Shown here piece after piece: positions 12,915-41,110 of a stretch of 45,908 nucleotides of DNA. The stretch is from Oscillospiraceae bacterium (GTDB lineage Bacteria > Bacillota > Clostridia > Oscillospirales > Oscillospiraceae). Each line of letters begins with the position of its first letter. Within the stretch, counting starts at the first letter, position 1. Under the pieces are notes generated by a model that did not search any database, was not told the origin of the DNA, and saw nothing but the letters and a program-made list of their open reading frames with translations. Location: positions 1-45,908 of the forward strand of contig JAAWEH010000010.1 in NCBI GenBank assembly GCA_022794215.1, read 5' to 3'. Both the position numbers and the translations under genes were made by a program.

Positions 12915-14297
12915 GTGCAGGAGCGTTTTGAACAATTTATCAAAAACCGTTTTATCCGCTCCCGGCGGCTCAATGCCACCCGGCTTGTGGCGGCCTCCTT
13001 TGCAGCGTTGATCCTGGCAGGGGCGCTGCTGCTGACCCTGCCCTTTGCGGCCCGGAACGGGGAGAGCGTGGGATTTTTTACGGCCCTGTTTACATCCACC
13101 TCGGCCACCTGTGTCACTGGGCTGGTGCTGGTGGACACCTGGACGGCCTGGTCTTTGTTTGGCCAGGTGGTGATCCTTCTGCTGATCCAGCTGGGGGGCT
13201 TGGGGTTTATGACGGTCATCACGCTGATCTCTCTGGCCCAGCGGCGGCACATTGGCCTTTCCGAGCGGCTGCTGATGGTCTCCACCCTGAACCTCAGCGA
13301 CCTGGACGGCGTAGTCCGGGTGGTGCGCCGGGCGCTGATGGGGACAGCCCTTTTTGAAGGGGTGGGCGCGCTGCTGCTGGCGGTGCGGATGGTGCCTCGG
13401 TTTGGCCTTATTCGGGGGATATGGCACGCCGTATTCCATTCGGTATCCGCCTTTTGCAATGCGGGCTTTGACCTTCAGGGAGGGGATACCGGGCCTTTTT
13501 CCAGTCTCTCCGGCTTCTCCGACGATCCCTTGACCCTGCTGGTGACGGGAGGACTGATCATCATTGGAGGTCTGGGCTTCCTGGTCTGGGACGATGTGGC
13601 CTCCCACCGAAGCTGGAAGAAGCTGACGCTCTATAGCCGCCTGGTGCTGAGCCTGACGGCGGCACTGGTGATTGGCGGAACGCTGTTTTTCTTTGCCACG
13701 GAGGGGGAGAACCCCGCTACGCTGGGCGCCATGCCTCTGCCGGAGCGGTGGCTCAATGCGCTGTTTCAGTCGGTGACCCTCCGCACAGCCGGCTTCAATG
13801 TTATCGACCAGGGGGCCATGAAGGACAGCTCCCTGGTGATGAGCTGCATCTTTATGCTGATTGGCGGCTCCTCCGGTTCCACCGCCGGCGGTATCAAGAC
13901 GGTGACGGTATGGGTGCTGCTGCTCACGCTGGTCACCGGGCTCAAGGGGCGGGAGAGCATTACCTTCCGGGGACGCACCCTGCCCAACCGCCGGGCCATG
14001 AGCGCCATGAACCTGTTTTTGATGGTGCTTTTTATGATGCTGTTTGGCTCTATGGCCATCTCTCTGGCGGACAATGCGCCCTATCTTTCCGCCGCCTTTG
14101 AGACAGCCTCCGCCTTAGGGACGGTAGGGCTTTCTGCCGGTTTGACCTCCGGGCTGTCCCGGTTTTCCCAGGGGCTGCTGATCTTGATGATGTACACCGG
14201 CCGGGTGGGGGTGCTCTCCTGCTCCATCGCCTTCCTGATCCGGCCCAAGGACGCCCTTGATATCAAATATCCCAAGTTCGACATTTTGATCGGCTGA
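12915..14297 (+). CDS. ktrB: Potassium uptake protein, TrkH/KtrB family
   Basis: A 460-residue channel-like transporter with the four-fold M1-P-M2 repeat. The four pore loops are visible: ATCVTGL (first), AFCNAGF (second), TLRTAGF (third) and LGTVGLS (fourth). Each carries the filter glycine. It moves K+ (often with Na+) through the membrane and is gated by its RCK partner, encoded 14 bases downstream. GTG 12915 is 7 bases after AAGGAGG (12901-12907); the upstream in-frame ATG 12876 lies in the hairpin. The size and the single-RCK partner favour KtrAB over TrkAH. Confidence 0.94.
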   Translation: MQERFEQFIKNRFIRSRRLNATRLVAASFAALILAGALLLTLPFAARNGESVGFFTALFTSTSATCVTGLVLVDTWTAWSLFGQVVILLLIQLGGLGFMTVITLISLAQRRHIGLSERLLMVSTLNLSDLDGVVRVVRRALMGTALFEGVGALLLAVRMVPRFGLIRGIWHAVFHSVSAFCNAGFDLQGGDTGPFSSLSGFSDDPLTLLVTGGLIIIGGLGFLVWDDVASHRSWKKLTLYSRLVLSLTAALVIGGTLFFFATEGENPATLGAMPLPERWLNALFQSVTLRTAGFNVIDQGAMKDSSLVMSCIFMLIGGSSGSTAGGIKTVTVWVLLLTLVTGLKGRESITFRGRTLPNRRAMSAMNLFLMVLFMMLFGSMAISLADNAPYLSAAFETASALGTVGLSAGLTSGLSRFSQGLLILMMYTGRVGVLSCSIAFLIRPKDALDIKYPKFDILIG

Positions 14298-19309: not shown

Positions 19310-20611
19310 ATGGAGCCGGTAAGCGTGATCGGGGCGGGACTGGCCGGGTGTGAGTGCGCCTGGCAGCTGGCCAACCGGGGAATCCCCGTGGTTTTGCGGG
19401 AGATGAAGCCTCAGAAGGCCACCCCCGCCCACCATAGCCCAAACTTTGCCGAGCTGGTCTGCTCCAACTCCCTGCGCTCGGATCAGCCGGAGAATGCGGT
19501 GGGGCTTCTCAAGGAGGAGATGCGCCGGCTCCACAGCCTGATCCTCTCCTGCGCCGACGAGCACCGGGTGGAGGCGGGAGGAGCCCTGGCGGTAGACCGG
19601 GAGGGGTTTTCCGCCGCCGTCACCGAGAAGGTGAGAAGCCATCCTCTCATCACCGTGGCGGAGGGGGAGGTAACGGAGATCCCGGAGGGGGAGGTGGTCA
19701 TCGCCGCGGGGCCTTTGGCCTCCGACAGCCTGACCGCCGCCATTGCCAAGGCCTTCCCGGACAGCGGAACCCTCAATTTCTTTGACGCGGCTGCCCCCCT
19801 GGTGAGCTTTGAGTCCATCGACATGGATCAGGCCTGGTTTGCCTCCCGGTATGACAAGGGGACGGCGGATTATATCAACTGCGCCCTTTCTCAGGAGGAG
19901 TATCTGGCCTTCTGGCAGGCTCTGCGGACAGCGGAGGAGGCGGAGGTTCACGGCTTTGAGGACAAGCAGGTCTTTGAGGGCTGTATGCCGGTGGAGGTCA
20001 TGGCCCGAAGAGGGGAGGACACCCTCCGGTACGGCCCCCTGAAGCCCAAAGGCCTGAAGGATCCCAAGACGGGGCGGGAGCCCTATGCGGTGGTTCAGCT
20101 GCGCAAGGACAACGCCCAGGGAAGCGTATATAACCTAGTGGGATTTCAGACCCATCTGAAATGGCCGGAGCAGAGGCGGGTGTTCTCCATGATCCCCGCC
20201 CTGGCCCACGCGGAGTTTTTGCGCTATGGGGTCATGCATCGGAATACTTACTTGAAGTCCCCCGGCTTTTTGGACCGGTATTACCGGGTGAAGCAGTGTC
20301 CCCGCATCTCCTTTGCCGGACAGATTACCGGGGTGGAGGGGTATGTGGAGTCGACCGCCAGCGGGTGCCTGGTGGGGATCGAGCTGGCGCGGAGGCTTTT
20401 GGGGCAGCCGCCGGCGGATTTCCCTGCCGAGACGGCCATCGGAGCGCTGGCCCTCTACATTTCCAACGAGAGTGTCACCGATTTTCAACCCATGAACATC
20501 AACTTCGGCATCATGCCGCCCTGGCCCGAGCGGGTGAAGGGGGGCAAGCGGGAGAAGAATACGCTGATCGCGAACCGGGCGCTGGAGGCTCTGGGGTCAA
20601 GGGATGTGTAA
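19310..20611 (+). CDS. trmFO: tRNA (uracil-54-C5)-methyltransferase, folate/FAD-dependent TrmFO
   Basis: A 433-residue flavoprotein that makes ribothymidine at position 54 of tRNA using methylenetetrahydrofolate. The FAD-binding GxGxxG is VIGAGLAGCECAWQL (6-20). ELVCSNSLRSD contains Cys 51 and VFEGCMPVEVMA the second conserved Cys. FAGQITGVEGYVESTASG is the GidA-like motif. AAGGGAGG precedes ATG 19310. Its last 15 bases are overlapped by the convergent small gene of module A. Confidence 0.96.
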   Translation: MEPVSVIGAGLAGCECAWQLANRGIPVVLREMKPQKATPAHHSPNFAELVCSNSLRSDQPENAVGLLKEEMRRLHSLILSCADEHRVEAGGALAVDREGFSAAVTEKVRSHPLITVAEGEVTEIPEGEVVIAAGPLASDSLTAAIAKAFPDSGTLNFFDAAAPLVSFESIDMDQAWFASRYDKGTADYINCALSQEEYLAFWQALRTAEEAEVHGFEDKQVFEGCMPVEVMARRGEDTLRYGPLKPKGLKDPKTGREPYAVVQLRKDNAQGSVYNLVGFQTHLKWPEQRRVFSMIPALAHAEFLRYGVMHRNTYLKSPGFLDRYYRVKQCPRISFAGQITGVEGYVESTASGCLVGIELARRLLGQPPADFPAETAIGALALYISNESVTDFQPMNINFGIMPPWPERVKGGKREKNTLIANRALEALGSRDV

Positions 20612-20812
20612 GCCCAGCTTGACCAGACGGCGGAACAGGCGGAGGCGTTCGTTGTTCTCGTGATCTATGGATTCCAGGAAGTAGGCGTCGAAGAGTTTGT
20701 TTTGCTCCGGGGTGAAGGTGGCGAAGAGGGCTTGGGCCGCCGGGTCGGAGTAGTGTTGGACGGGCAGGGATTCTTCGATGAGATAGTAGATTTGGTCGAT
20801 CAGGTCTTGCAT
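20597..20812 (-). CDS. Small helical protein of module A (DUF6809-like?)
   Basis: A 71-residue protein, probably all helical and acidic in its first half (MQDLIDQIYYLIEESLPVQ) and basic near the end (RLRLFRRLVKLGLHIP). The last 28-residue block aligns without gaps to the module B protein at 40877-41110 (shared D, E, R, F and terminal LGL; 7 of 28 identical). The size and the LGL ending recall the poorly known DUF6809 family, but I am not sure. GAGGTGAT precedes the ATG. It is divergent from an XRE gene, reads from an operator-covered promoter and overlaps the trmFO 3' end by 15 bp. Function is unknown; a partner or target of the repressor is a guess. Confidence 0.7.
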   Translation of the reverse strand: MQDLIDQIYYLIEESLPVQHYSDPAAQALFATFTPEQNKLFDAYFLESIDHENNERLRLFRRLVKLGLHIP

Positions 20813-20891: not shown

Positions 20892-21101
20892 ATGAAAATT
20901 TTTGCAGAGCGGTTGCGGAAGGTTCGCACAGACGCAGGGGAAAGCAGGGAAGCGTTGAGCAACGCCCTTGGGCTTTCTGTAAGCCAAATCAGTGAAATGG
21001 AAAATGACAGGAAGGGCACGACCTTGGAAAAATTGGTGGTGCTTTGCCGGCATTACAACGTTTCTGCAGATTATTTGTTGGGGCTTTCTGATACTCCGTA
21101 G
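20892..21101 (+). CDS. Short XRE-family repressor of module A
   Basis: A 69-residue protein that is one HTH_XRE domain. It has FAERLRKVRTDAGESREALS, then ALGLSVSQISEMENDRKGTT as the recognition helix region, and ends in NVSADYLLGLSDTP. It aligns with the module B repressor (40584-40802) at about 45% identity by hand count, including a shared NVSADYLLG block. It lies 27 bases beyond two operator dyads, so autoregulation and control of the divergent small gene are likely. The gene is less GC-rich than its neighbours, consistent with acquisition. The non-coding repeat begins 66 bases downstream. Confidence 0.88.
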   Translation: MKIFAERLRKVRTDAGESREALSNALGLSVSQISEMENDRKGTTLEKLVVLCRHYNVSADYLLGLSDTP

Positions 21102-21167
21102 GGGTGGGGGCAAACCCGCCCGGCGGAAGCGGTTGCCCGGTTTGGTGTTCGTTTTGGTACAACGCTC

Positions 21168-21695
21168 TTTTTTCGGCCTCCCGGCCGGGGCCAAAACCGC
21201 TTTAGAAGCGGTTCTGGACTCCGAATCTTTAAGGGCAAAGACCAGAGGAATAAACTGCGAACTACGGTACAACCGCAGAGAGCACCTACGCTGATAGATT
21301 ATCCCTCGGGCAAGAAGCTTTGGGATATCCTTCTATCGACCGGCGGCTTCCTCACAGCGACCCGCTGTCCCTTTTGCGCCGCTGCCGCTGATAAGAGCGT
21401 AGCCTTTACGCTCTTCGCTGAAATAAACGCCGCCTGGCTGGTCTGGCGGCCCCGCCGCCAACCCAACAAGGTTGCTGTCTCCAGGCGTTTCCTGGTCGGC
21501 GGCTCTCTCTGCCTCTTTGCTGATCGGTAACGGCAGTGGGGCTGGAGGAGCTATCCTAACTTTACGTATAAGCCGGAAACATAACCGTCAGAAAGCTTTT
21601 CTTGGGGAGTCTGAGGGGCCATTCTTTTCTCGAAAAGAATGGTCCTTCAGAAACCACGCAACGTTGAAATTTGATCGCACCCACCAACCAAACGG
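21168..21695 (+). repeat. Dispersed structured repeat, copy A (~530 bp, non-coding)
   Basis: This fills most of the 635-bp gap between the XRE gene and plsX. It matches 40019-40568 in the same chromosomal orientation. Strongly conserved blocks are 21168-21220, 21325-21420 and 21460-21695. The block at 21248-21324 is not shared, and copy B has its own insertion of similar length. Hairpins include 21191-21217 (CCA-AACCGCTT/AAGCGGTT-TGG), AGAGCGT/ACGCTCT near 21393-21416 and a 42-nt hairpin at 21610-21651. Reading frames across it show mostly amino-acid-changing differences between copies, so it is unlikely to code. It could be a large structured RNA or a non-autonomous mobile element. Confidence 0.85.
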
Positions 21696-21736
21696 CACCA
21701 CCCACCGATACCACCCCACCAAGGAGGTAACATACC

Positions 21737-22786
21737 ATGAAAATCATCATAGACGCCATGGGCGGCGACAACGCCCCCCGCTGTAACGTAGAGGGAGCCC
21801 TGGCCGCCGTGCGGGAGCTGGGAGTGGAGGCAGTCCTGGTGGGCCGTGGAGACGAGATCCTGGCCGTTCTGCATGACATGGGGCTGGACGCCCCGCCGCC
21901 GGGATTGGAGATCGTCCATGCCTCCGAGGTGGTGGACATGGAGGACAACGCCGCCACTGCCTTTAAGGAGAAGAAGGACTCCTCTCTGACCGTGGGCTTG
22001 AACCTGGTGAAGGAGGGCAAGGGGGACGCCTTTGTCTCCGCCGGCTCCACCGGAGCCCTTTTGTCGGCCGCCACCCTGGTGACCAAGCGGATCCGGGGGA
22101 TCCGCCGGGCGGCTATGGCCCCCAAGATCCCCACCGCCAACGGAGGGGCCATTCTCATCGACTGCGGCGCCACGGCCGAGTGTACCCCCGAGTATCTGCT
22201 GCAGTTTGCCTTTATGGGCTCTTACTACGCCGAGCACATCCTGGGCAGGCCGGAGCCCCGGGTGGGACTGCTGAACATCGGCGCGGAGGAGAGCAAGGGG
22301 CTGGATCTCCAGCGGGAGACCTACGCCCTTTTGAAGCAGGCGGAGAAAGAGGGGCGGATCCACTTTGTGGGCAATGTGGAGGCCCGGGAAGCGGTGCTGG
22401 GGGCGGTGGACGTGATCGTCTGCGACGGCTATTCGGGCAACATTTTCCTTAAGACCCTGGAGGGTACCGCCCTGTTTTTGGCGGCTGAGATGAAGAAAAT
22501 GTTCAAGAAGAATTTGCTGACCAAGGTCTCGGCCCTCATGGTCTCCGGCGGGATCAAGGACTTTAAGAAGCTGATGGACTCCCGGGAGGTGGGGGGGACG
22601 CCCCTCATCGGCATCTCCAAGCCGGTGATCAAGGCCCACGGATCCTCCGACGGCTACGCCATCAAAAATGCCATCGGGCAGGCGGCAAAATTTGCCTCCT
22701 CGGGTATGATCGAAAATATTGCGGAAAATGTGTCTTATATGCGCCTTCCGGTGGGAAAAGCCCTGAAAGAGCAGGATGGAGAATGA
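21737..22786 (+). CDS. plsX: Phosphate acyltransferase PlsX
   Basis: A 349-residue enzyme converting acyl-ACP and phosphate to acyl-phosphate, the first step of PlsX/PlsY phospholipid synthesis. It begins with IIIDAMGGDNAP and contains SAGSTGALLSAATL, ILIDCGATAEC, VGLLNIGAEESKG, VCDGYSGNIFLKTLEG and GISKPVIKAHGSSD, all hallmarks of PlsX. AAGGAGG (21721-21727) is well placed. It is followed by acpP and rnc as in many Firmicutes. I see no convincing promoter in the 40 bases between the repeat and the gene, so its promoter may lie within or before the repeat. Confidence 0.97.
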   Translation: MKIIIDAMGGDNAPRCNVEGALAAVRELGVEAVLVGRGDEILAVLHDMGLDAPPPGLEIVHASEVVDMEDNAATAFKEKKDSSLTVGLNLVKEGKGDAFVSAGSTGALLSAATLVTKRIRGIRRAAMAPKIPTANGGAILIDCGATAECTPEYLLQFAFMGSYYAEHILGRPEPRVGLLNIGAEESKGLDLQRETYALLKQAEKEGRIHFVGNVEAREAVLGAVDVIVCDGYSGNIFLKTLEGTALFLAAEMKKMFKKNLLTKVSALMVSGGIKDFKKLMDSREVGGTPLIGISKPVIKAHGSSDGYAIKNAIGQAAKFASSGMIENIAENVSYMRLPVGKALKEQDGE

Positions 22787-38870: not shown

Positions 38871-39935
38871 TTACAGGATGATAAGCTCCTTGGGGGAGTG
38901 GGTGATGTCGGTGCATCCGGTGGCCTCCATGCGCACCACGTCCTCAATGCGCACGCCGAACTTGCCGGGCAGATAGATCCCCGGCTCGGCGGAGACCATA
39001 GCGCCCACGGGCATGGGGGTGGTGTCCCGGGTGTTGGCGTTGGGGTTCTCGTGGATCTCGATGCCCACGCTGTGGCCGTAGCCGTGGCCGAAGTAGGGGC
39101 CGTAGCCGGCCTCCTCGATGACCTTGGCGGCGGCCCTGTGGATGTCCACCCCGGGCACCCCGGCCTTGGAAGCGGCAATGCCCGCCTTCTGGGCGGCCAG
39201 CACCGTTTCATAGACCCGTTTCTTCTCGTCGTCGATCTGCCCCAGAGCCACCGTCCGGGTCATGTCAGAACAGTACCCGCCATAGACGCAGCCGAAGTCC
39301 ATGGTAATGAACTCCCCCTTCTGCACCTGGCGGGCTCCGGGGATGGCGTGGGGCTTGGAGCCGTTGGGGCCGGAGGCCACGATGGGGTCGAAGGAGGTGC
39401 GCTGGGCGCCAAAGCGCATCATATCGTAGACCAGCTTGGCGGCGATCTCCGCCTCGGTCATGCCGGGCTGGATGAACTTGATGATCTCGCTGAAGGCTTT
39501 GTCGGTGATGTCCTGGGCCTTGATCATCCGGGCAAGCTCCTCCTCGTCCTTGGCGGCGCGCAGGCCGGTGATGAGGCCGTTGGCGGGCACCAGCTGGGCG
39601 TGGAGATCCTTGGTGAGGGCATTGAACTGCCCCAGGGACATATATCCGTCCTCAATGCCCAGGGTCTTGACGCCGTGGGCGTCGATGAACTCGTTGATAA
39701 GAGCGGCGTAGTTTCTCTGCCCGTCCACCATGACCACCTCGGCGCCCTGGACGGTCTCGTTGGCGTGCTCGATGTAGCGGGAGTCGGTGATATACCGGAC
39801 GGCGTTGGCCGTGACGATGGCGTAACCCTCTCCGTGGAGGCCCACGGCGTAGAACTCGCCGGGCTCGGAGGAGCAGAGCATGGCGTCGATGTGGAACTCG
39901 GGCAGTTTGGCTGCAATTTGTTTCAGGTGGTTCAT
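38871..39935 (-). CDS. Xaa-Pro aminopeptidase-like M24 peptidase
   Basis: A 354-residue metallopeptidase. An N-terminal creatinase-like domain (1-125) is followed by the pita-bread fold. The metal ligands are visible: Asp in FITMDFGC, Asp in GGYCSDMTRT, His in GHGYGHSVG, Glu in AEPGIYLPG and Glu in VRIEDVV. It removes N-terminal residues before proline. AAGGAAGG precedes the ATG. The region upstream holds repeat copy B, starting 83 bases away. Confidence 0.94.
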   Translation of the reverse strand: MNHLKQIAAKLPEFHIDAMLCSSEPGEFYAVGLHGEGYAIVTANAVRYITDSRYIEHANETVQGAEVVMVDGQRNYAALINEFIDAHGVKTLGIEDGYMSLGQFNALTKDLHAQLVPANGLITGLRAAKDEEELARMIKAQDITDKAFSEIIKFIQPGMTEAEIAAKLVYDMMRFGAQRTSFDPIVASGPNGSKPHAIPGARQVQKGEFITMDFGCVYGGYCSDMTRTVALGQIDDEKKRVYETVLAAQKAGIAASKAGVPGVDIHRAAAKVIEEAGYGPYFGHGYGHSVGIEIHENPNANTRDTTPMPVGAMVSAEPGIYLPGKFGVRIEDVVRMEATGCTDITHSPKELIIL

Positions 39936-40018: not shown

Positions 40019-40568
40019 TTTTCCGGCTTCCCGGCCGGGGCCAAAACCGCTTGAAAGCGGTTCTGGACTGCGTCGTCGCAAAGTCCGCTATGCTCCGCTT
40101 CCGCCTATGGCGAAAGCTCCACCCGCTCCCTTGCTCCTCCTTCCCCCACAAAGCCATCCGGCTTTGCGGGGCCCCCGAAGGGCATAGACCAGTGAGGTAT
40201 CCTTCTATCGACCGGCGGCTCCCTCAAGGCGACCCGTGGCCCCTTTTGCGCCGCTGCCGCTGAATAGAGCGTAGCCTTTAAGCTCTTCGCTGAAAGCGGC
40301 GCCGCCTGGGTGGGGTGCGGCCCCTGCCGCCAACCCAACAAGGCTGCTGTCTCCAGGCGTTTCCCGGTCAGCGGCAATTCTCTGTCTCTTTGCTGATTGG
40401 TAACGGCAGTGAGGCTGACGGAGCTATCCTAACTTTACATATAAGCCGGAAATACAACCGTCAGAAAGCTTTTCTTGGGGAGTCTGAGGGGCCATTCTTT
40501 TCTCGAAAAGAATGGTCCTTCAGAAACCACGCAACGTTGAAATTTGATCGCAACCACCAACCAAACGG
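40019..40568 (+). repeat. Dispersed structured repeat, copy B (~550 bp, non-coding)
   Basis: This occupies most of the 648-bp gap between the M24 gene and the module B repressor. It matches 21168-21695. Shared blocks are 40019-40070 (TTTTCCGGC...TTCTGGACT), 40176-40300 and 40330-40568. The stretch around 40075-40170 is unique to this copy. The hairpin at 40041-40066 keeps its stem while its loop differs from copy A. The 42-nt hairpin at 40483-40524 is identical to copy A. On the chromosome it reads the same way as copy A, but relative to the adjacent XRE gene it is reversed. Confidence 0.85.
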
Positions 40569-40583
40569 TAAAACCCATCAGTC

Positions 40584-40802
40584 TTACGGAGCATCCGTAC
40601 GCCCCAAAAGATAATCAGCGGAAACGTTAAAGTAGTCGCAGAGGAGATAGAGACGGGGCATTGTAGTGCCGGTTTTGCCTCCCTCCATATCGCTGACTTG
40701 GGTAGGAGTGACCCCCAACAGTTTTGCAATATCGGCTTGTGTTTTACCCAGTTGCTTTCTAAGAAGAAAGAGCCGTTGCCCAAATATTTTTGCATCAAAC
40801 AT
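40584..40802 (-). CDS. Short XRE-family repressor of module B
   Basis: A 72-residue single HTH_XRE domain protein. It has KIFGQRLFLLRKQLGKTQAD, then IAKLLGVTPTQVSDMEGGKT, and ends with NVSADYLLGRTDAP. It is a paralogue of the module A repressor (about 45% identical by hand). AGGGGG lies 8 bases before the ATG. It is divergent from the small gene at 40877 and likely controls it. The AT-rich composition contrasts with the flanking core genes. Confidence 0.88.
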   Translation of the reverse strand: MFDAKIFGQRLFLLRKQLGKTQADIAKLLGVTPTQVSDMEGGKTGTTMPRLYLLCDYFNVSADYLLGRTDAP

Positions 40803-40876: not shown

Positions 40877-41110
40877 ATGGATTTCTTGGAAGAACTGTTT
40901 ACCTCGCTGTGGCAGGAGCCAGACCCCAAAACGGAGGAATACCTGGCGAATAAAAAGCTCCGGGATAAACTGTATGAAAAAGTGGAGGGACTGTCCGGGG
41001 CGGATCTGATGGATAAATTTATGAATGCCCATTGGGAGTACATGGAGCTGGAGTGCCAAAGGTTTTTCCTCAATGGCATCCGCCTTGGCCTGGAATTACT
41101 GCGCCTGTAA
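40877..41110 (+). CDS. Small helical protein of module B (DUF6809-like?)
   Basis: A 77-residue acidic, probably helical protein (MDFLEELFTSLWQEPDPKTE ... ECQRFFLNGIRLGLELLRL). Its last part aligns ungapped over 28 residues with the module A small protein, ending in the same LGL. AAGGTG precedes ATG 40877 and a consensus promoter drives it. Its 3' end overlaps the convergent nfo gene by 15 bp, the same overlap as between the module A gene and trmFO. Function is unknown. Confidence 0.75.
   Translation: MDFLEELFTSLWQEPDPKTEEYLANKKLRDKLYEKVEGLSGADLMDKFMNAHWEYMELECQRFFLNGIRLGLELLRL

Follow-up and report, generated by a model that had tools for sequence, protein, structure and literature searches.

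The intergenic block at 21168-21695 of the window, by which we mean the whole stretch of 45,908 nucleotides of Oscillospiraceae DNA analysed here, is a copy of a large, modular and non-autonomous intergenic repeat of one genus that works like the pneumococcal BOX element and other mosaic elements, a reading to which we would give somewhat better than three chances in four. The sequence is repeated and modular, it does not code for protein, a hairpin at its 3' end is selected for pairing, orthologous sites are patchily occupied, and near-identical copies stand in different species. Mobilisation in trans, recognition of its hairpins and perhaps some effect on neighbouring genes would complete the picture, as considered below.

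A mosaic, non-coding repeat

The first-pass annotation had described the block as intergenic, as aligning with 40019-40568, and as one copy of a large dispersed repeat with conserved hairpins. When 21168-21695 was compared with its own genome by BLAST, this partner (copy B) was recovered as two segments, 40019-40072 (91%, query 2-56) and 40198-40568 (91%, E 5e-146, query 159-528), and the alignment is thus borne out as 55 + 371 bp at 91% with an unrelated stretch separating both segments. The hairpins are real as well, the arms 21610-21629 and 21632-21651 being 90% complementary. By BLAST, the non-matching middle comprises ~100 bp in A and ~125 bp in B, and a looser search lengthens the match up to 40180. 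The middles annotated as non-homologous inserts are therefore present, but the one in B is better described as a variant or alternative module than as random filler, because the copy on contig C29 of the host genome (G000) has the same stretch (94% over 175 bp). Repetition was confirmed, although two copies turned out to be too few: own-genome BLAST gives ~20 places and a mosaic unit. Homology of copy A to the other copies runs from ~21168 to ~21697-21704. The features discussed here are as follows.

20597..20812, - strand: small gene divergent from the XRE gene; DUF6809-like by eye alone, no Pfam match
20892..21101, + strand: small XRE-type regulator gene; HTH_3/HTH_31 above cut-off; stop faces copy A
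21168..21704, + strand: copy A of the mosaic repeat, between the XRE gene and the plsX-like gene
21168..21442, + strand: 5' module; CCGGCC left hairpin, AAAACCGC/GCGGTT hairpin, GACCCG...CCGCTGCCGCTGA block
21433..21604, + strand: type-1 core; CCAGGCGTTTCC ... GGAGGAGCTATCCTAACTTTACGTATAAGCCGGAAACA ... GCTTTTCTTG
21610..21651, + strand: 3' hairpin with strong covariation; head TTCTTGGGGAG before it
21652..21704, + strand: right end; consensus ...GATCGCAACCACCAACCAAACGGTACCACC
21737..22786, + strand: PF02504 fatty-acid-synthesis protein, which we take to be plsX; downstream of copy A, anchor of site A
38871..39935, - strand: Peptidase M24 gene, presumably 'pepP'; beside copy B, anchor of site B
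40019..40578, + strand: copy B, between the M24-peptidase gene and an XRE gene
40073..40179, + strand: stretch of B without alignment to A; alternative module, also in G000:C29
40483..40524, + strand: 3' hairpin of copy B
40584..40802, - strand: small XRE-type regulator gene; stop faces copy B
40877..41110, + strand: DUF6809-like gene in divergent orientation to the XRE gene; 20.2 bits, under the Pfam cut-off of 27

The repeat is mosaic DNA. Its 5' module measures ~275 bp and its core ~170 bp, whole elements range over ~0.15-0.9 kb, and 5' module, core and 3' hairpin are found together, apart, or inverted relative to one another. In three of the genomes (G005, G008 and G001) the 5' module mostly lacks the type-1 core, and several of these copies then have, judged by eye, another middle. 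Among the fetched loci, the orientation of module 21340-21442 relative to the 3' hairpin is the same in 17 pairs and inverted in 7 of 24 (rows from both hairpin queries were merged by eye, taking 27 'same' rows to 17), and in three loci (L030, L137, L164) hairpins occur on both sides. The core sequence is strongly conserved across species and sites in an alignment of 15 copies; the alignments of the 5' module and of the 3' hairpin hold 31 and 34 copies. At 55-58% G+C, against 60% for the window, the repeat is not AT-rich.

The variable loops hold small palindromes, GTAG-headed by eye in L059, L061 and L065. A hairpin insert of ~58 bp (CTCCCGCTT...AGCGGGAGT) occupies the same core spot in three G000 copies (L038, L040, L042), and a similar hairpin insert occurs in G015 (L124). 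At G009:C102 (L069 412-1308), two variants of the 3' hairpin flank ~0.9 kb with an open frame on the opposite strand, an arrangement suggestive of a gene captured by the repeat or inserted in it.

The host genome is a MAG of 1.30 Mb in 29 contigs, 68% complete, in which BLAST found 32 pieces that we grouped into ~20 places; the best own-genome matches are G000:C6:10784-11310, at 85% over the full length, and copy B. Contigs C13 (L048 1-112) and C20 (L047 1-112) share their first stretch of sequence, which leads into a partial copy; this points to the repeat as a place where the assembly breaks, and since both begin so close to a partial copy the true number in G000 is probably higher than counted. 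Beyond the host, matches were found in 15 of 60 genomes (own plus 59 relatives): 13 of 15 congeners, against at least 1 of 44 other relatives, that one by a 22-bp word. Relatives were scored by at most 10 candidates per genome, and both copy numbers and out-of-genus reach are therefore lower bounds. With a sequence model of the core (R1), 8 of 16 genus genomes were recovered, G010 and G006 weakly. Run over 200 sampled family genomes with at most 14 candidates per genome and stricter filters, again giving a lower bound outside the genus, the model was positive in at least four, two of the genus and two others; we discounted the two out-of-genus matches (E 3e-4 and 8e-4), which fall within open frames of 537 and 377 aa. 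The exact core pattern occurs in genome_contigs in 7 stretches of 5 genomes, the own genome perhaps excluded, all of them Oscillospiraceae MAGs and one labelled uncultured Pseudoflavonifractor. Across the genomes sampled, the repeat is confined to one Oscillospiraceae genus. A phage origin was considered and set aside, the exact core pattern having no match in viral_contigs. A different composite repeat at G000:C5 (L049 2060-2330), made of G+C-rich hairpins, ends in the same type of 3' hairpin and is more widely distributed; with at most 5 candidates per genome scored, pieces related to it were found in at least 18 of 150 family genomes, most of the outside matches covering its other hairpins.

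That the block is not an obvious gene, as annotated, held up. Six-frame translation of 16 core-bearing copies from six genomes, over the part from ~21330 on, found stops in all six frames of 8/8 G000 copies and of 3/3 site-B copies of sister species, while two short copies do have open frames, G012_c two and G015_a one. Gap lengths relative to copy A are mostly not divisible by 3, and substitutions, counted in 6 copies, spread evenly over the three codon positions with no 3-base periodicity. Six frames inside the repeat gave nothing above the Pfam cut-off (sole match E 0.11), and eight frames gave no NCBIfam match at E <= 1. We reject a coding function on these grounds.

Structure, strand and the case for a large RNA

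ROOL, GOLLD, OLE and HEARO are RNAs of large size, with conserved blocks and variable arms, and the first-pass annotation had proposed that the block might be an undescribed large RNA, to be examined for covariation and compared with such families. The covariation is strong in one place. In the alignment of the 3' hairpin 93.3% of 608 cells are paired (83.5% in shuffles), double changes occur at 11 of 19 pairs, and the covariation score is 0.378 compared with 0.197; on four of five measures 0/500 shuffles scored as high, the count of further pair types alone being unremarkable (43/500). Sliding the partner arm destroys the pairing signal. This hairpin is real and under selection for pairing. 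The other parts, aligned separately, behave differently in that compensatory changes are few: 8 of 30 predicted pairs of the 275-bp 5' module show any double change, in one to three sequences each, and 1 of 16 predicted pairs of the core does. Covariation is thus strong in the 3' hairpin and weak in the 5' module and core, rather than running throughout the fold.

An RNA of ROOL, GOLLD or HEARO style, multi-copy, transcribed from each copy and built of a conserved core with variable arms, would account for the covarying 3' hairpin and for a core motif kept across species and sites. It would also fit the consensus folding energy of the 5' module, which was lower than in all 60 column shuffles on either strand (-78.7 vs -64.9 +/- 4.6 on the + strand, -84.9 vs -69.9 +/- 6.0 on the - strand). 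The same figures, however, show both strands folding about equally well, as does the copy A block (z -4.2 on the + strand, -3.6 on the - strand), and the strand evidence from the two hairpins conflicts: on the + strand the 3' hairpin has more G-T than A-C pairs (53 vs 27, with 15 of the 27 A-C at the outermost pair), a point in favour of an RNA, whereas one pair of the 5' hairpin is A-C on the + strand in 24/30 copies, that is, a wobble on the other strand. Besides the scarcity of compensatory pairs outside the 3' hairpin, the modules may be missing or inverted, and neither orthologous site examined is filled across the genus. At both window copies no promoter-like site was found, and terminator-like sites were not clearly above chance. 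The comparison with known large RNAs did not come out in favour of the annotation: the window and 20 fetched loci gave 0 Rfam matches at gathering thresholds (ROOL, GOLLD, OLE, HEARO and group II introns included), a permissive scan of 21100-21760 returned a yeast snoRNA model alone (E 0.38), and no Rfam family fits. Of the large-RNA proposal, the covarying hairpin stands; we regard a large RNA as unlikely.

Orthologous sites, neighbours and probable movement

The 14 genomes surveyed upstream of plsX (site A, with a GIDA gene, presumably trmFO, as a further Pfam anchor) were rechecked for repeats and XRE genes by BLAST. The element is complete in G000. About 256 bp matching the 5' module are present in G005 and about 78 bp of type-2 3' end in G001; G012 combines ~200 bp of core with other hairpins, several pieces occur in G011, and G015 has a single weak piece of 85 bp. 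Five genomes gave no repeat match by BLAST, the XRE match being 118 (G014), 53 (G007), 45 (G006), 14 (G008) and 14 bp (G002) from plsX; G010 and G013 lack the XRE gene, and G004 is cut, its contig beginning with the gene itself. At site B (16 genomes, upstream of the M24 peptidase, with an AP-endonuclease-type protein as a further anchor), G000 and G008 have the type-1 element, G009 has its left part with the rest on another contig, and G001 has type-2 pieces. G014 has no upstream sequence there, the element-XRE side being on another contig. G010, G011 and G015 have an XRE match 25, 26 and 51 bp from the peptidase gene with no repeat between, and G011 has repeat pieces beyond the XRE cassette. 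G003 has 240 bp with no repeat match, G005 neither an XRE nor a repeat match in 464 bp, and the available stretches of G013, G007, G002, G006, G012 and G004 (short in the last two) contain no XRE gene. At site B, what looked by eye like pieces in G005 and G003, and at site A a short palindrome in G014, gave no BLAST match to the repeat at E <= 1e-3 and were dropped. At both window sites, then, sister species differ in whether the orthologous locus carries the whole element, part of it or none; because the species are too diverged for base-exact empty sites, gain and loss at a given site are indistinguishable. The XRE gene itself is present or absent across the genus at both sites, and beside the peptidase gene its divergence exceeds that of its neighbours.

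The site-B copies of G014 and G009 are 99.3% identical, leaving out the ~0.9-kb G009 insertion, and each is ~97% identical to that of G008. Of 17 flanking windows of 100 columns compared between G014 and G009, 15 have 65-84% identity; the other two lie within the XRE gene and have 53-55%. In a tree in which most forks are unresolved, the G014, G009 and G008 copies group together and G000 copy B falls with other G000 copies, not with its positional counterparts. Recent exchange between species or conversion between copies explains the near-identity better than slow vertical descent under selection, and the repeat seems to have moved between species. Counter to a mobile repeat, the copies at site B have been retained in at least four species, for which selection would be another explanation, and the strong conservation of the core is needless for a decaying parasite.

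Orientation relative to the flanking genes looks random (10/9/9/8 plus one undecided, 37 copies). It was scored from codon-scored gene calls, which replaced calls by longest ORF after the latter misread known genes; small XRE genes are missed by these calls, so that some copies were scored by the gene beyond. The XRE genes themselves were sought with four queries around 45 hand-listed copies with hand-set ends, among them 16 of the ~20 G000 places (C5, C13, C20 and the C29 relic left out). An XRE gene lies within 130 bp of 11 of these 45 copies, and in all 14 copies with one within 800 bp its stop codon faces the element. XRE genes are common in G000 (33 HTH_3 matches), so that ~5% of copies would be expected near one by chance; with orthologous sites merged by hand, 8 of 41 are near an XRE gene, P 0.0012 under an assumed rate of 5.3%, a rough background that takes the 33 matches and one gene per kb. 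The excess of copies behind XRE genes over this rough expectation is suggestive.

No transposase linked to the repeat was identified in the 16 genus genomes searched for Y1 (PF01797). Matches to this family occur in 8 of the 16, with none in G005, which has many copies, or in G009 and G014, which have the near-identical ones. None of the 15 Y1 loci is flanked by the repeat on both sides, and one match touches it within the fetched locus, a truncated relic at G000:C29 (~13,040-13,260, L052/L093) in which a RAYT-like Y1 frame is cut after ~80 residues and runs into the repeat's right end. With 14 of 15 Y1 loci devoid of element sequence, Y1/RAYT as the mobilising partner is unproven. A MITE with terminal inverted repeats was also considered, some left ends resembling the inverted right end by eye, and was abandoned; the left end matches the inverted right end above shuffles in 1/24 only. 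No target duplication is visible by eye, the orthologous sites being too diverged for exact comparison. The annotation's other proposal, a non-autonomous mobile element, gains support from the dispersed copies, the empty orthologous sites, the cross-species near-identity and the unbiased orientation. It had named the absence of covariation and of a transcript, together with ends and target duplications typical of a simple transposon, as speaking against its reading; what we find is one covarying hairpin and neither such ends nor such duplications.

We consider the following scenario. An enzyme acting in trans would insert the copies, perhaps recognising the hairpin-forming ends and not inverted termini; the middle would then be reshuffled as copies recombine with one another and take up small palindromic repeats. 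The 3' hairpin might be selected as the substrate of this enzyme, or as an attenuator-like or RNase-III-like structure in the read-through RNA of the neighbours.

Other arrangements of the same observations can be envisaged. The element might be a 3'-end partner of XRE genes, serving as their 3' UTR or as a DNA site to which the XRE protein binds, and spreading with XRE/DUF6809-type cassettes. The 11 close copies, the uniform facing of the stop codons and the excess after merging of orthologous sites are what this would predict, but for 34 of the 45 copies there is no XRE gene at 130 bp or less, cassettes without the element exist at both sites, and either end of the element can face the XRE gene; moreover, the excess itself depends on hand-set ends, four queries and a rough background rate, and we hold such a partnership to be very unlikely. 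Simple decay of a once autonomous IS200/605- or RAYT-type element might be read from the subterminal hairpins at both ends which, without terminal inverted repeats or target duplications, fit HUH transposases, and the relic at G000:C29, whose first ~80 RAYT-like residues run into the element's right end, could be read in its favour. That junction is possibly a chance insertion, however, and the Y1 loci without element sequence (14/15), together with the genomes without Y1 matches, make plain decay remnants highly improbable. A more adventurous version, which we think quite unlikely, would see here a new class of large mobile element, moved by some factor as an ssDNA hairpin or a structured RNA, landing preferentially just 3' of XRE cassettes, using or controlled by those regulators, with the core (GGAGGAGCTATYCTAA...ATAAGCCGGAAACA) as its recognition or catalytic part.

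Comparison with known repeats and RNAs

Conserved segments, variable arms and hairpins need not mean a new large RNA; mosaic mobile repeats show the same features, and orthologous empty sites help to separate the two. Our repeat resembles ROOL, GOLLD, OLE and HEARO in size and in its conserved blocks with variable arms; it differs from them in that it matches none of them at the Rfam gathering threshold and in that its modules recombine and invert. What we do find, namely dispersed intergenic copies, separable modules and presence or absence at orthologous sites, is what characterises mosaic repeats of the BOX/BIME kind.

The likeness to MITEs and to the neisserial Correia/NIME elements (as given in the excerpted text of PMC3049150) lies in a non-coding, base-paired, non-autonomous sequence presumed to be moved in trans; unlike these, our repeat has no terminal inverted repeats, no target duplications were seen, and its G+C is 55-58%. 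With REP, REPIN and BIME sequences it shares a palindromic, extragenic and mosaic character, stems with alternative complementary bases, and the GTAG-headed short palindromes seen by eye inside variable loops of several copies. The excerpt of PMC3733652 links GTAG palindromes with 5-13 bp stems to RAYT transposases, and the GTAG repeats that the paper lists come from other phyla; neither Firmicutes nor Clostridi appears as a word in it. The units of REP, REPIN and BIME are 20-40 bp, compared with ~150-900 bp here, and, in contrast to REP/REPIN with RAYT, no Y1/RAYT gene is flanked by our repeat.

The closest likeness, by description, is to BOX of Streptococcus pneumoniae and S. suis: a modular intergenic repeat with a variable middle, a strong predicted fold and mutual insertion. 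According to the excerpted text of PMC3049150, BOX elements are composites of boxA, boxB and boxC, probably parasitic, strongly folding and slow-moving, which insert into one another and may affect the genes co-transcribed with them. Our repeat departs from BOX in its larger modules (up to 275 bp) and in its host, an Oscillospiraceae genus, and no boxB-like tandem array or IS with similar ends was seen here. It is large for its kind and often stands behind XRE genes, which raises the question of its target sites in gut Oscillospiraceae. We found no published account of this family in the open-access papers searched; a repeat family hitherto undescribed is unsurprising, because 67 stem-loop families were newly reported from 40 bacterial genomes (PMC2267715, in its excerpted text). 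What the window contains is apparently an undescribed large mosaic, non-autonomous intergenic repeat of BOX/BIME-like kind, resembling parasitic repeats more than a new functional RNA.
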